Source: Oscillospiraceae bacterium (GTDB lineage: Bacteria; Bacillota; Clostridia; Monoglobales; WRAG01). From it: 44,999 bases of DNA. Numbering within the stretch: position 1 is the stretch's first letter; the number at the start of each line of letters is the position of its first letter. This document shows, piece after piece, positions 9,336 to 13,569 of the stretch. The translations under genes were made by a program, and so were the position numbers. Under the pieces are notes generated by a model. It made no database searches. It was not told the DNA's origin and was given only the letters and a program-made list of their open reading frames with translations. Where the stretch lies: positions 1-44,999 of the forward strand of contig WRAG01000021.1 in NCBI GenBank assembly GCA_009780345.1, given 5' to 3'.

Positions 9336-9374
9336 TGAAATAGTGAGTATAATTTGGGGCATCCACTACGAATT

Positions 9375-9409
9375 AAAAAAAGCTATCGACTGAATTCGAT
9401 AGCTTTTTT
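9375..9409. terminator. Bidirectional terminator between convergent units
   Basis: AGCTATCGA (9381-9389) pairs with TCGATAGCT (9396-9404), flanked by an A run on the left and a T run on the right, so it can stop transcripts from both sides: the peptidase from the left and the four-gene nucleotide operon from the right. Confidence 0.85.
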
Positions 9410-9500
9410 AAATTCACAGTATTCTTATAGAATTTTCCGACAAACCTAATAAAATTAATAATTACAACTTAGTCAATAAGCAATATTTACGATTGAAATA

Positions 9501-11087
9501 CTATTCTATAAAAAAACAAGATAAAATTTCATCATATTCTTCTTTGGTAACAATTTGAGATGATATAGAATATACGGAACATATTGCATGATCAGGTGTT
9601 GCGTCATCTCCAAGGCGTTTGTTGATTAGCAAGTTGATTCTTTGACACTCGTTATTATCTAAAAATCTAAAATTAATAATATTTCCCAGCTTTTTCTGAT
9701 GAATTTTTGTTAGCTTGCCTTCTTTTTGCGGGAAAATATCAACAACTTTAGTTAAGTTAAAGTGTTTGAAAGGATCATTGATTAAAGATTCTACTTCCTG
9801 TGAACAAACCTGATGAGCTAATAATAATTCTTTAAAAGCGTTAAGTATATTGCCATTTTCAATTATATTTTCACCTAAATCCAGCCAGTTAGAACCTTCC
9901 GGTGCTGTGAAGTAATGTTCCATAATTTCATTAAAAAATTTCAGAATTATATCCTTTTGTTCACTAATACCTCTTAGATCAAATTTTGGTAATATATCAT
10001 TTTTCATTATACATATCGCTTCGCATAATTCTAAATAATTACCTACAGTGCTTCCGTTAGGTTGTTCCATATCAATAAGGCTATTAATTACGTCGAATCC
10101 TTCAAGTTTTAATATATGGTTTATATGTTGTGTTAATTCTATTGCATCATCTCTTTCAAAAAAAGCTCCTTCGCCATAGCGTACATCTAAAAGCAGCAAA
10201 TCAGCGGGGCAAGCAATCTGTTTAGACGCAATACTGGAAACCGCCAATGGTATAGAATTTACAGTTCCTGTATTACTTCTAAATCCATATAATATTCTAT
10301 CAGCAGGGCATAAATCCTCTTTTGTAACCGTCATTGCAATATTACATTTTTTTAAAACTTCCATTGTTTCTTCCCCCGGATTGGGGAAACGAAATCCTTC
10401 AATTACGCCTAGTTTGCTCCAAGTACCGCCTGTGAAACTTAATGATTTCGCAACAACAAATGTGGAAATAAGCGGGAAATCTTTAGACATATATGCCAAC
10501 ATGCTTGGCAATATTAAAGCCACCTTTTCGGATAACGCGCCTGTTGGATATCTTCTTATAATTTTTTTGTTGTCAAAAAATTTTCTGTAATCGTATATTT
10601 TTCCCGAATTTTTCATAGAAATTGTCAAATCATATAAATCATCTTGACTCAAACCATTTATATATATCATAATCAAAAATAAACCGATAAATTCAGTATC
10701 CAAATCATGATTAATTAATTTGGTAATTACATACTTAAAATTATCCATTCCTACTTGTGATTTATTAGACAGAAGGTTTAAAACATTTGATAATTGCGGC
10801 TCAATTTCATAAATGATGTGTGCGGGTTTCAAATTCAAGTTTAATTCGTCGATAGAATTGACGGAAGATAAGTATTTATAAATTTTAGGATAACGGTTGA
10901 TTAACTCCGTAATTACGGCACAAGTTTCTGACATATCAAACAAATTTGATTTTTTTAGAATTAAATATGACATGATAGTGCATTGACAAGGATCTAAATC
11001 ATCCAAAATATTAAAGACCCTATCTATACATATTTTTCTTTCGTTTAAAGCATCGTCCAAAAATGAAAAATAATTATACACACACAT
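9501..11087 (-). CDS. Divergent thymidine/pyrimidine-nucleoside phosphorylase-fold protein
   Basis: Last gene of the four-gene nucleotide operon; 528 residues against about 435 in the family, with an N-terminal extension of roughly 100 residues. Family features: LSQDDLYDLTISMKNSG (146-162, the helical domain), SLSFTGGTWSKLGVIEGF (215-232, matching the family's HTGGT.DKLE.IPGF), PADRILYGFRSNTGTVNSIP (261-280) followed by SSIASKQ (284-290), which supply the base-contacting Arg270, Ser and Lys289, then DVRYGEGAF (301-309). The phosphate/catalytic loop, KHSTGGVGDK in thymidine phosphorylase, reads RRYPTGALSEK (178-188): the catalytic His is Tyr and the following Ser is Pro. So the base pocket looks kept while the phosphate side is changed; it may use another phosphate-bearing substrate or not be a phosphorylase. 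ATG at 11087 is preferred over GTG 11090; it overlaps the Nudix gene by 14 bases. Confidence 0.7.
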   Translation of the reverse strand: MCVYNYFSFLDDALNERKICIDRVFNILDDLDPCQCTIMSYLILKKSNLFDMSETCAVITELINRYPKIYKYLSSVNSIDELNLNLKPAHIIYEIEPQLSNVLNLLSNKSQVGMDNFKYVITKLINHDLDTEFIGLFLIMIYINGLSQDDLYDLTISMKNSGKIYDYRKFFDNKKIIRRYPTGALSEKVALILPSMLAYMSKDFPLISTFVVAKSLSFTGGTWSKLGVIEGFRFPNPGEETMEVLKKCNIAMTVTKEDLCPADRILYGFRSNTGTVNSIPLAVSSIASKQIACPADLLLLDVRYGEGAFFERDDAIELTQHINHILKLEGFDVINSLIDMEQPNGSTVGNYLELCEAICIMKNDILPKFDLRGISEQKDIILKFFNEIMEHYFTAPEGSNWLDLGENIIENGNILNAFKELLLAHQVCSQEVESLINDPFKHFNLTKVVDIFPQKEGKLTKIHQKKLGNIINFRFLDNNECQRINLLINKRLGDDATPDHAICSVYSISSQIVTKEEYDEILSCFFIE

Positions 11088-11460
11088 CACCGCCCTTTAA
11101 ATAATCTAAAGCCTTTACAATGAAATTATCATAATTAGCAAATTCTGCCGGCAATATGTAATTATAATTTATACTTTTTTCTTCTTTGAGCTTTATGCTT
11201 CCCTTAACATTTTTAGTTATAAAATAATATCCCATCCATCTTTCGCCGTTAATAGCAAAAATGTTTTTAAAAAGGAATTTAACATCATTAATTATAAGAT
11301 TTGTCTCTTCGAAAACTTCTCTTATGCAAGAACTGACTATCGCTTCGTCTTTCTCCACTTTTCCTCCGGGAAAATTCCATAAATTTTTCGAACGCTTTTC
11401 CTCAATTATTAAATATGAGTCGTGCTCATTAGCTATTAAAACTCTAACAAATTTTTTCAT
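11074..11460 (-). CDS. Nudix hydrolase
   Basis: Single-domain Nudix protein of 128 residues, which would cleave a pyrophosphate linkage in a nucleoside diphosphate derivative. The Nudix box is at residues 33-55: G33, E39, then REVFEET (47-53), matching GX5EX7REUXEEXGU except that the conserved Gly near the end is Asn54. The order of strands and the WNFPGGK entry (28-34) fit MutT-like housecleaning enzymes. Its ATG overlaps the stop of the upstream kinase by four bases (ATGA), so the genes are translationally coupled. Substrate cannot be read from the sequence. Confidence 0.88.
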   Translation of the reverse strand: MKKFVRVLIANEHDSYLIIEEKRSKNLWNFPGGKVEKDEAIVSSCIREVFEETNLIINDVKFLFKNIFAINGERWMGYYFITKNVKGSIKLKEEKSINYNYILPAEFANYDNFIVKALDYLKGGDVCV

Positions 11461-12089
11461 AATAACTCCTCTAATTTATCCTTTATTTTAGCTGCCATCG
11501 TTTCTGCCGAGCTATCTTCCTGTTTAATAATCAAAAGTTTTTTGCCAAATTCATCAGCATACTGCTTGCAAGCGTCTTTCATATGCTTTTGCGAAAGAAA
11601 ACATTTTTTCAAAAAACTAGAATTCTGATCTAAACTCCGATTACGCTTTTTTAAAAACGACTGCCATAAACTTTCCTCTATTTCAAAGAAAATAACTATA
11701 TCAGCATTTGGCAAGACATCGTAATCCGTTTTTGCCAATTCCTGAGTCAAATCATAATATATATCGTTTTTAGGGACAAGCCACTCCATTCCCGGCTTAT
11801 CTAAATATTTGTATATCAATTTGTCATAATAAGAATCCACAAAAGCTATTTTCCCGTCCAATGCTAACTTTTGAGCTTGATATAAATAAGGCACTCTGAC
11901 AGATCTGAACCAAGAAATGCCCGTAAAGTATCCATACGCTTCTCGTTCGTTAACGGCGTCAGGCCATTCGGATTCTTCCGGCTCACAAAAAGCTTTGACT
12001 TCGTACAATTCCGCTAAACGTTTAATAACCGAAGACTTGCCGCAGCAAGGAATGCCCATCGCAACAATAAATTTGCCATAGTCAGTCAT
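11457..12089 (-). CDS. P-loop nucleoside/nucleotide kinase-like protein
   Basis: A 210-residue single-domain P-loop protein with Walker A GIPCCGKSS (residues 12-20) near the N-terminus, a FVDSYYDK segment (83-90) in the place where deoxynucleoside and thymidylate kinases carry an acidic-Arg/Ser motif, a hydrophobic strand ADIVIFFEIE, and a basic lid-like segment KKRNRSLDQN after residue 145. Size and layout fit the deoxynucleoside kinase/thymidylate kinase group. The ribosome binding site AAGGAGG overlaps the end of the upstream HD gene (11-base gap), and the stop overlaps the Nudix start. Likely role: phosphorylating a nucleoside or nucleoside monophosphate handled by its operon partners. 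Family moderately sure, substrate unknown. Confidence 0.75.
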   Translation of the reverse strand: MTDYGKFIVAMGIPCCGKSSVIKRLAELYEVKAFCEPEESEWPDAVNEREAYGYFTGISWFRSVRVPYLYQAQKLALDGKIAFVDSYYDKLIYKYLDKPGMEWLVPKNDIYYDLTQELAKTDYDVLPNADIVIFFEIEESLWQSFLKKRNRSLDQNSSFLKKCFLSQKHMKDACKQYADEFGKKLLIIKQEDSSAETMAAKIKDKLEELL

Positions 12090-12100
12090 CTTAATCCTCC

Positions 12101-13372
12101 TTAATATTGGAACGATTCAGTATAAAATTCAATGAAAAACTCTTTCACATCCACTCCGGATATCTTATTAGTGCGCATATATTTTTTTGTAAGACCGGCT
12201 ATGCCGTCTTGTATTTGCTTTGATGTAATACCATGATCTCTGGATTTAGTAGCTTCCATAAACGCGGCAACGTCATCGCAAACTTTTATCAATCGTCCGT
12301 CTACTAAATCATAGATATTTTCATTATAAATTTTATTAACATTAGTTTTATCATTTAATTTTTCAACTTTATTATTTCTGATTATCCTATTGCAAAATTC
12401 GTCATCAATTTCCGGCAAATCTCCCATCAAATATTTCAATCTAGGAAGAAAATTGGGAAACATATGGTCCGGAAACTTAGGATATAGTTCTTCATCACAT
12501 ATTTTCTTTTCTATCTCTTTTATAATTTTAGGAAAATTATCAGTTGCTTGTTTAACAGGAGAAATAATATCCCTTGTCACGCTTTCGGGCAAATCATGAA
12601 ATAAAGCCGCAAAAAAGTTATTAACCAACCTTTGCTTGCAAGCGCCTAACTTTTTGCTTAAAAAATACATTAATAACGCCACATACATTGAATGACCCAG
12701 CACGCTTGTTTGCGGTATTCGCGGTGTTTGGCTCCATCTAACTTGATAACGCAGTTGTTCGATCAAACACATTGCGTTAAATAAAGTGCGATTTTCTTTA
12801 TCTTCAAGCATTGATATAGCTTTTAGATGCTTAAACTCTTCTACTTCTTCATTAAGCGTTTTCTCAATTATATCTATTCTGGGGAAAGAATCATTTGCTC
12901 GTTTAATAATATCAAACTCTCTTTTTGAGGAATATTTATGAGCGGCTTTTAAAATTGATAATTCTAATTTAACGTTTTCTGAATCGTTAATCAAAAATTC
13001 TTCAAATTTTTTCAAAACATTCTCATCTTCAATAAATTCTTTATATTGTTCTACCACCCATTTATTAAGTTCTTTATAGTCATCAGGATAGTCAGATTTT
13101 ATTTTGCTTATTACAGTTGATTTAATATCTGAAAGAACAATATTTTTAAGCAATGCAAATACAATGCCATCCACGATATATTCCCAGTCTATTGGAGTGG
13201 CTTCTTTGTCTTCCATAGACGCTATTACAAATGCTAAAACAGCTTTATGAGCTTGTTTGTCCATTTCCACTAAGTTAATAGGTCTTATTCTGTCATTCCA
13301 ACGATAAATGGAAAAAGCGTCAAATAGTTTGTTTGCCAACTTGCGACTTATCAATAATATCACCGCTTTCAA
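12101..13372 (-). CDS. HD-domain phosphohydrolase (YfbR/HDDC2-like) with degenerate N-terminal HD-like half
   Basis: First gene of the nucleotide operon; 423 residues. The C-terminal half has a complete HD site: Arg212, VLGHSM (His227), ALFHDLPES (His259, Asp260), TRDIISPVK (266-274) and CDDVAAF (Asp366/367). This is the layout of 5'-deoxynucleotidase YfbR-like HD enzymes, which remove phosphate from deoxynucleoside monophosphates. The N-terminal half repeats the pattern in weak form (RWND, AHKAV with His42, then FALLKNIVLSDIKSTVISK aligning with FAALFHDLPESVTRDIISP), but HD is KN, so this half cannot bind the metal. The family is normally about 200 residues, so this protein is double length. 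The TTG at 13372 has no clear ribosome binding site; GTG at 13363 is an alternative start. Adjacent promoter at 13417-13445. Confidence 0.82.
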   Translation of the reverse strand: MKAVILLISRKLANKLFDAFSIYRWNDRIRPINLVEMDKQAHKAVLAFVIASMEDKEATPIDWEYIVDGIVFALLKNIVLSDIKSTVISKIKSDYPDDYKELNKWVVEQYKEFIEDENVLKKFEEFLINDSENVKLELSILKAAHKYSSKREFDIIKRANDSFPRIDIIEKTLNEEVEEFKHLKAISMLEDKENRTLFNAMCLIEQLRYQVRWSQTPRIPQTSVLGHSMYVALLMYFLSKKLGACKQRLVNNFFAALFHDLPESVTRDIISPVKQATDNFPKIIKEIEKKICDEELYPKFPDHMFPNFLPRLKYLMGDLPEIDDEFCNRIIRNNKVEKLNDKTNVNKIYNENIYDLVDGRLIKVCDDVAAFMEATKSRDHGITSKQIQDGIAGLTKKYMRTNKISGVDVKEFFIEFYTESFQY

Positions 13373-13495: not shown

Positions 13496-13536
13496 ATAAA
13501 AATGTTCTTATAGGACTTGAATCCTATAAGAACATT
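13496..13536 (-). terminator. Rho-independent terminator of the S-layer operon
   Basis: A perfect 15-bp stem (13501-13515 with 13522-13536) and a 6-base loop; on the minus strand it is followed by five T. It lies about 60 bases past the last SLH gene and directly before the nucleotide operon promoter. Confidence 0.88.
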
Positions 13537-13569
13537 TCTAATTGTCTAAGCGACATGATTTGAATTTGC

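Follow-up and report, generated by a model that had tools for sequence, protein, structure and literature searches.

The window, i.e. the whole stretch of DNA analysed (44,999 nucleotides), is an entire 45-kb contig of a genome of 2.05 Mb (96% complete) and contains four adjoining genes for nucleotide-type enzymes, which raises the question of what these genes do together. They lie on the minus strand in the order HD hydrolase (12101-13354), P-loop kinase (11457-12089), Nudix hydrolase (11074-11460) and a protein with an altered thymidine phosphorylase fold, termed TP' here (9501-11090). All four open reading frames were present as the first-pass annotation had given them, with a gap of 11 bases between the HD and kinase genes (12090-12100), a 4-base ATGA overlap of the kinase and Nudix genes (11457-11460) and an overlap of the Nudix and TP' genes of 14 bases if TP' starts at ATG 11087 or of 17 bases if it starts at GTG 11090. 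Its reading of a single operon under one good promoter is supported by a sigma-70-type site on the minus strand (13445-13417, TTGAAA-N17-TACAAT), which matches the consensus at 10 of 12 positions and is the only one with an extended TG among the promoter-like sites listed, sites that are overall no more frequent than in shuffled sequences. Terminator-like inverted repeats are found on both sides, as had been claimed: one 3' of the TP' gene (9365-9420; 25-nt arms, 88% complementary, 6-nt loop) and one between the operon promoter and the upstream gene for an SLH protein (13497-13540; 19-nt arms, 95% complementary); neither is in the list of a simple terminator scan. A check of third codon positions, run gene by gene, showed that the operon is richer in A+T than its surroundings, since GC3 was 0.253 for TP', 0.271 for the Nudix hydrolase, 0.370 for the kinase and 0.270 for the HD hydrolase (overall GC of the four genes, 30-37%) and 0.38-0.53 in the rest of the window's open reading frames of at least 110 amino acids. 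This composition, together with a patchy distribution, supports the transfer of the operon that had been suspected. We also considered a boundary of a prophage or mobile element within the window and found no support for it: a tRNA scan of the window found none, no convincing repeats flank the operon, and TP' and the kinase have no viral relatives.

Family, profile and fold matches bore out the assignment of the four proteins to their families. The HD hydrolase is YfbR-like and has 417 amino acids from TTG 13354, a start that is likelier than the earlier one at 13372 because homologues begin there. It matched HD_3 (2e-23) and the YfbR-like family (3e-19), and its HDxxExxxxD motif has the spacing found in E. 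coli YfbR, a 5'-deoxynucleotidase, but the window protein carries a region of about 190 residues N-terminal to the HD domain that YfbR lacks, and its score with the equivalog NF003009 (33 bits) is below the cut-off of 122 bits. The Nudix hydrolase (128 amino acids, NUDIX 1e-14) has a complete Nudix box GX5EX7REUXEEXGU except for the last Gly, which is Asn. The kinase (210 amino acids) gave weak family matches as a single sequence (Pfam dNK, 15.5 bits versus a cut-off of 27), but a profile of eight sequences found the deoxyguanosine kinase chains 2jas and 2jaq (3e-6) and the deoxynucleoside kinase 8puu (1e-4), and the closest fold to its AF2 model (pLDDT 91) was again 8puu, the deoxyadenosine kinase of Giardia (7e-9), followed by thymidylate kinases. 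Profile and predicted fold thus settle its placement in the dNK/TMK superfamily, with which it shares the fold, the P-loop and the EP..W substrate motif. Unlike 2jas, 8puu and TMK, however, it reads D-S-Y-Y-D-K at the catalytic DRS/DRY-type motif and has a conserved WFR motif of its own, and identity is only ~17%.

TP' (529 amino acids from GTG 11090, 528 from ATG 11087) is clearly related to the NP-II phosphorylases. It matched the pyrimidine-nucleoside phosphorylase family with 4e-62, although its TIGR02644 score of 210 bits is far under the cut-off of 409 bits; a TP' profile found the pyrimidine-nucleoside phosphorylase 1brw (3e-74), and so did a Foldseek search with its AF2 model (pLDDT 86.5; 2e-25). 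The whole fold, the glycine-rich TGGT loop and the base-binding residues are common to TP' and 1brw, 1azy and human thymidine phosphorylase (TP), whereas about 100 extra residues at the N-terminus are peculiar to TP', as are the RRYP and TGGTW motifs, which are new and invariant in this group. The signature RRYPTGALSEK (residues 179-189, 10524-10556, minus strand) takes the place of the DKHSTGGxGDxx phosphate/catalytic motif. Of the residues of thymidine phosphorylase in question, K84, S86, S95 and S113 are presumably the phosphate ligands. For a residue census, eight TP' were aligned with 28 canonical enzymes encoded elsewhere in the phylum. It revealed, in E. coli numbering, the substitutions D83R, K84R, H85Y, S86P, S/T95A, S113V/I, D172S and K191Q/H in eight of eight TP' as against 28 of 28 canonical enzymes, nearly all of these columns being invariant within each group. 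R171, S186, K190 and T123, on the other hand, are invariant in both; the first three correspond to R271, S286 and K290 of the window protein (10221-10280, minus strand). Arg171, Ser186, Lys190 and His85 are the residues named for E. coli TP (PMC5238616), and their equivalents in the human enzyme, R202, S217, K221 and H116, bind the base (PMC2719695).

The first-pass annotation had called this fold altered, which the loss of the phosphate site and of the catalytic His in every member confirms, but the glycosidic phosphorolysis that it also named is unlikely. Since all eight TP' have other residues at the phosphate-binding and catalytic positions and the pyrimidine-binding residues are invariant, ordinary phosphorolysis appears unlikely, and TP' should, judged by its residues, still recognise uracil or thymine. 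The base site that TP' has kept suggests U/T nucleotides as the probable substrate of the operon. We therefore rejected, on the residue census, an identity of TP' as an ordinary thymidine phosphorylase. Ordinary pyrimidine salvage by a divergent enzyme of this kind would fit the unchanged fold and base site and a host genome with no other match to TP', but it has to accommodate the replacement of K84, H85, S86, S/T95, S113 and K191 in eight of eight proteins and the lack of measurable activity in the human mutants H116F and H116K (PMC2719695); we regard it as very improbable. Most genomes of the window's phylum have a canonical pyrimidine-nucleoside phosphorylase. In the window's own genome, TP' was the sole match to its sequence at 1e-10 and no canonical enzyme was seen.

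How far TP' has spread was assessed with a hand-made DNA pattern for [FY]TGGTWxK(L/F) in 84,980 species genomes, a scan that misses members without the motif. The pattern gave 35 matches, and tblastn identified true TP' in seven genomes besides the window's, from about six phyla: Deltaproteobacteria (L055/L098), TM6 (L058), Pseudomonadota (L068), Phycisphaerales (L069/L099), Nitrospiraceae (L070/L096), Mucilaginibacter segetis (L080/L097) and Chlamydiia (L084/L095). No further TP' was found in 101 genomes of the TM6 phylum or 256 genomes of Nitrospirota. TP' forms one clade apart from the canonical enzymes (SH-aLRT 100), with some long branches. A kinase homologue was present in six of the seven genomes and always adjoined TP', even though the search pattern was independent of the kinase, and a Nudix gene was found at four of the seven loci. 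Elsewhere the kinase is rare: outside the window's own genome it was absent from 398 genomes of the phylum and from 100 relatives, and of 251 genomes of the Mucilaginibacter family only that of L097 showed it. In Chlamydiota, 4 of 151 genomes have kinase homologues without an adjacent TP'. The proteins of the window, L096 and L068 cluster in the TP' tree (support 92) as well as in the kinase tree (83/84), which, at this moderate support, is consistent with a joint transfer of both genes. Scans of viral_contigs with TP' and the kinase, as single proteins, with the TP' motif pattern and with both alignments, yielded no relatives; tblastn against plasmids and phages found no kinase and, for TP', distant phosphorylases only (< 40% identity).

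Conservation of the linkage therefore stood in part. Kinase, Nudix and TP' genes are kept together in unrelated genomes, but the HD gene is outside the fixed set. Of 99 relative genomes, 18 have a near full-length orthologue of the window HD and one more gave a weak, partial match, the gene contexts varying and the other three operon genes being absent from them; the HD genes at other TP' loci are not orthologues of the window HD. A fixed four-gene set was accordingly rejected, other TP' loci having a different HD subfamily or none. At L098, an ABC-3C pair and a SAMHD1-type HD accompany kinase-Nudix-TP'; L096 has BREX3 genes, a recombinase, TP'-Nudix-kinase and then a divergent SAMHD1-type HD; L068 has kinase-Nudix-TP' followed by Mrr; L095 has two kinases and TP'; and L058 has Nudix-TP', with no kinase match in the genome. 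In L097 the order is kinase-TP'-TMK-membrane protein, and in L099 kinase-TP' is convergent with a TMK-membrane protein pair; the two pairs are homologous (36% and 41% identity). What recurs is the kinase with TP'; Nudix, HD, or TMK together with the membrane protein vary from locus to locus. The HDs of L096 and L098, two of the seven other loci, match solved dNTPase structures and, weakly, the PADLOC dGTPase model. From counts of HD-domain genes per genome, with ~950 genes per Mb and independent placement assumed, the chance of a directly adjoining HD gene at three or more of eight loci is ~2e-5, a value biased by inclusion of the window, which prompted the finding; without the window (two of seven) the chance is about 1e-3 in order of magnitude (at least two of eight: 1.5e-3). 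Known or candidate defence genes (BREX type 3, ABC-3C or Mrr) lie beside three of the seven other loci; the window has no defence neighbours. The models matched were BrxC, BrxF, PglX, PDC-M68 and Mrr, besides matches to DndA/SspA and RmrA whose gene of origin was not traced. A control of 161 kb from the same genomes, small and unmatched for neighbourhood, gave helicase-type models only (such as SNF2 and UvrD homologues) among the families listed (25 of 65).

From these comparisons the core of the system is a dNK-like kinase plus TP', often with a Nudix gene between them, which HD nucleotidases or dNTPases of differing subfamilies join at some loci. We read the operon as a putative instance of an accessory module, rare and moving horizontally, that acts on U/T nucleotides. 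This reading is supported by the residue census, the literature on the base site and the single TP' clade, by the adjoining kinase in six of seven genomes that is rare otherwise, and by SAMHD1-type HDs at two of seven loci, unlikely by chance. Its role may be anti-phage defence, which we tentatively prefer at somewhat less than an even chance, ahead of salvage or detoxification and of analogue synthesis, because of the patchy distribution, the composition, the dNTPase partners and the BREX3, ABC-3C and Mrr genes next to three of the seven loci, compared to helicase-type models among the control families listed. The HD enzyme would strip phosphates from (deoxy)nucleotides, as a YfbR-type enzyme in the window and as a SAMHD1-type enzyme elsewhere, and the kinase and Nudix hydrolase would add or remove 5'-phosphates of the same pyrimidine nucleotide. 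TP' would bind the U/T nucleotide via R271, S286 and K290, its new Arg pair R179-R180 may face a more anionic group, and it might either cleave or transfer the glycosidic bond with no need of inorganic phosphate, or act as a nucleotide sensor; defence, suggested by genomic context, would work through a change or a read-out of the U/T nucleotide pool. Against this stand the low number of loci (eight), about half of which have no HD gene, the window itself without defence neighbours, the small and unmatched control, the Chlamydiota kinase homologues without adjacent TP', and the fact that simple pool depletion needs no kinase.

The kinase's membership of the dNK superfamily would suit a pathway that salvages or detoxifies a modified pyrimidine nucleoside or nucleotide, in which Nudix and HD would dephosphorylate an unwanted (d)NTP or (d)NMP, TP' would remove or exchange the base and the kinase would re-phosphorylate the useful product. 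Every enzyme thereby gets a metabolic step, and one kinase homologue in Chlamydiota has thymidylate synthase, Ham1 and LOG-type genes as neighbours. However, the module is very rare and patchy, has defence neighbours and no adjacent transporter or catabolic genes, and has lost the phosphate site, so that we consider this possible but doubtful. A nucleotide-signalling immune system appears unlikely, though the interchangeable partners could be its effectors (SAMHD1-type dNTPase, YfbR-type nucleotidase, or thymidylate kinase plus DUF5919-like membrane protein) and the kinase-TP' core could make or read a non-canonical uracil or thymine nucleotide; if so, TP' would be a phosphorylase turned nucleotide receptor or a phosphate-independent glycosyl enzyme. 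More unlikely still is the synthesis of an inhibitory nucleotide analogue, either antiviral, cf. prokaryotic viperins, or a secreted antibiotic. Base exchange by TP' would yield the nucleoside, the dNK-like kinase would phosphorylate it, at two loci with the thymidylate kinase homologue, and Nudix and HD would protect the host. The sequential kinases at L097 and L099 and the sanitising enzymes in the other subtype agree with it, and OxsA, the HD of the oxetanocin pathway, is the top PDB hit for the window HD, but that match is weak (E 6e-4) and no radical-SAM or tailoring enzymes were seen beside the loci.

A full-text literature search, with most subscription journals and preprints outside its scope, found no described system with these parts, in line with the first-pass annotation, which named no four-part system of this kind. 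The individual folds are known, but in the literature searched we found neither the TP' branch nor its kinase partnership nor the recruited HDs. With dNTP-depletion defence (dCTP deaminase, dGTPase) the preferred defence module has HD dNTPase partners and defence neighbourhoods in common, but it has a kinase, Nudix and TP' and no cytidine deaminase, and a PADLOC search with E up to 1 gave no model for the window HD. Kongming (KomABC), which signals with dITP, likewise links nucleotide chemistry and kinases to a possible immune signal; there, in contrast, the kinases are supplied by phage and host (PMC12948488), and the families of the KomA deaminase, KomB and KomC are absent from the four window genes. 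TP', with base recognition kept and the phosphate site uniformly lost, is a test case for an NP-II enzyme changing its reaction or becoming a sensor, and the linkage to a rare kinase in about six phyla, the HD recruits and the nearby defence genes make the module a cheaply testable candidate for nucleotide-based defence.

Some further observations concern the partners. The window HD is matched over its whole length by phrog_30941, a phage family of unknown function, and a Helicobacter pylori phage record contains a full-length homologue (35% identity over 98%); in relatives this HD protein is mainly chromosomal. The TMK and two-part membrane protein (weak DUF5919 match) occur in two phyla, at L097 11805-13257 and L099 1005-2601, and the TMK homologue resembles the PADLOC candidate PDC-M51B. 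At L096 (11221-13069), beside the BREX type 3 genes, the SAMHD1-type HD gene is followed by one for a 177-aa protein without a Pfam match, which we take to be reminiscent of YwgA. In Chlamydiota, the kinase homologue without TP' at L107 (7647-12134) is in a row with genes for a member of the thymidylate synthase family, an unknown protein of 196 aa, a histidine phosphatase, a LOG-type protein and a Ham1 pyrophosphatase; together they may be a further cluster that modifies nucleotides. Several Chlamydiota kinase homologues (L095 9334-10176; L107-L110) have an apparent N-terminal signal peptide or membrane anchor, which is odd for a nucleotide kinase.
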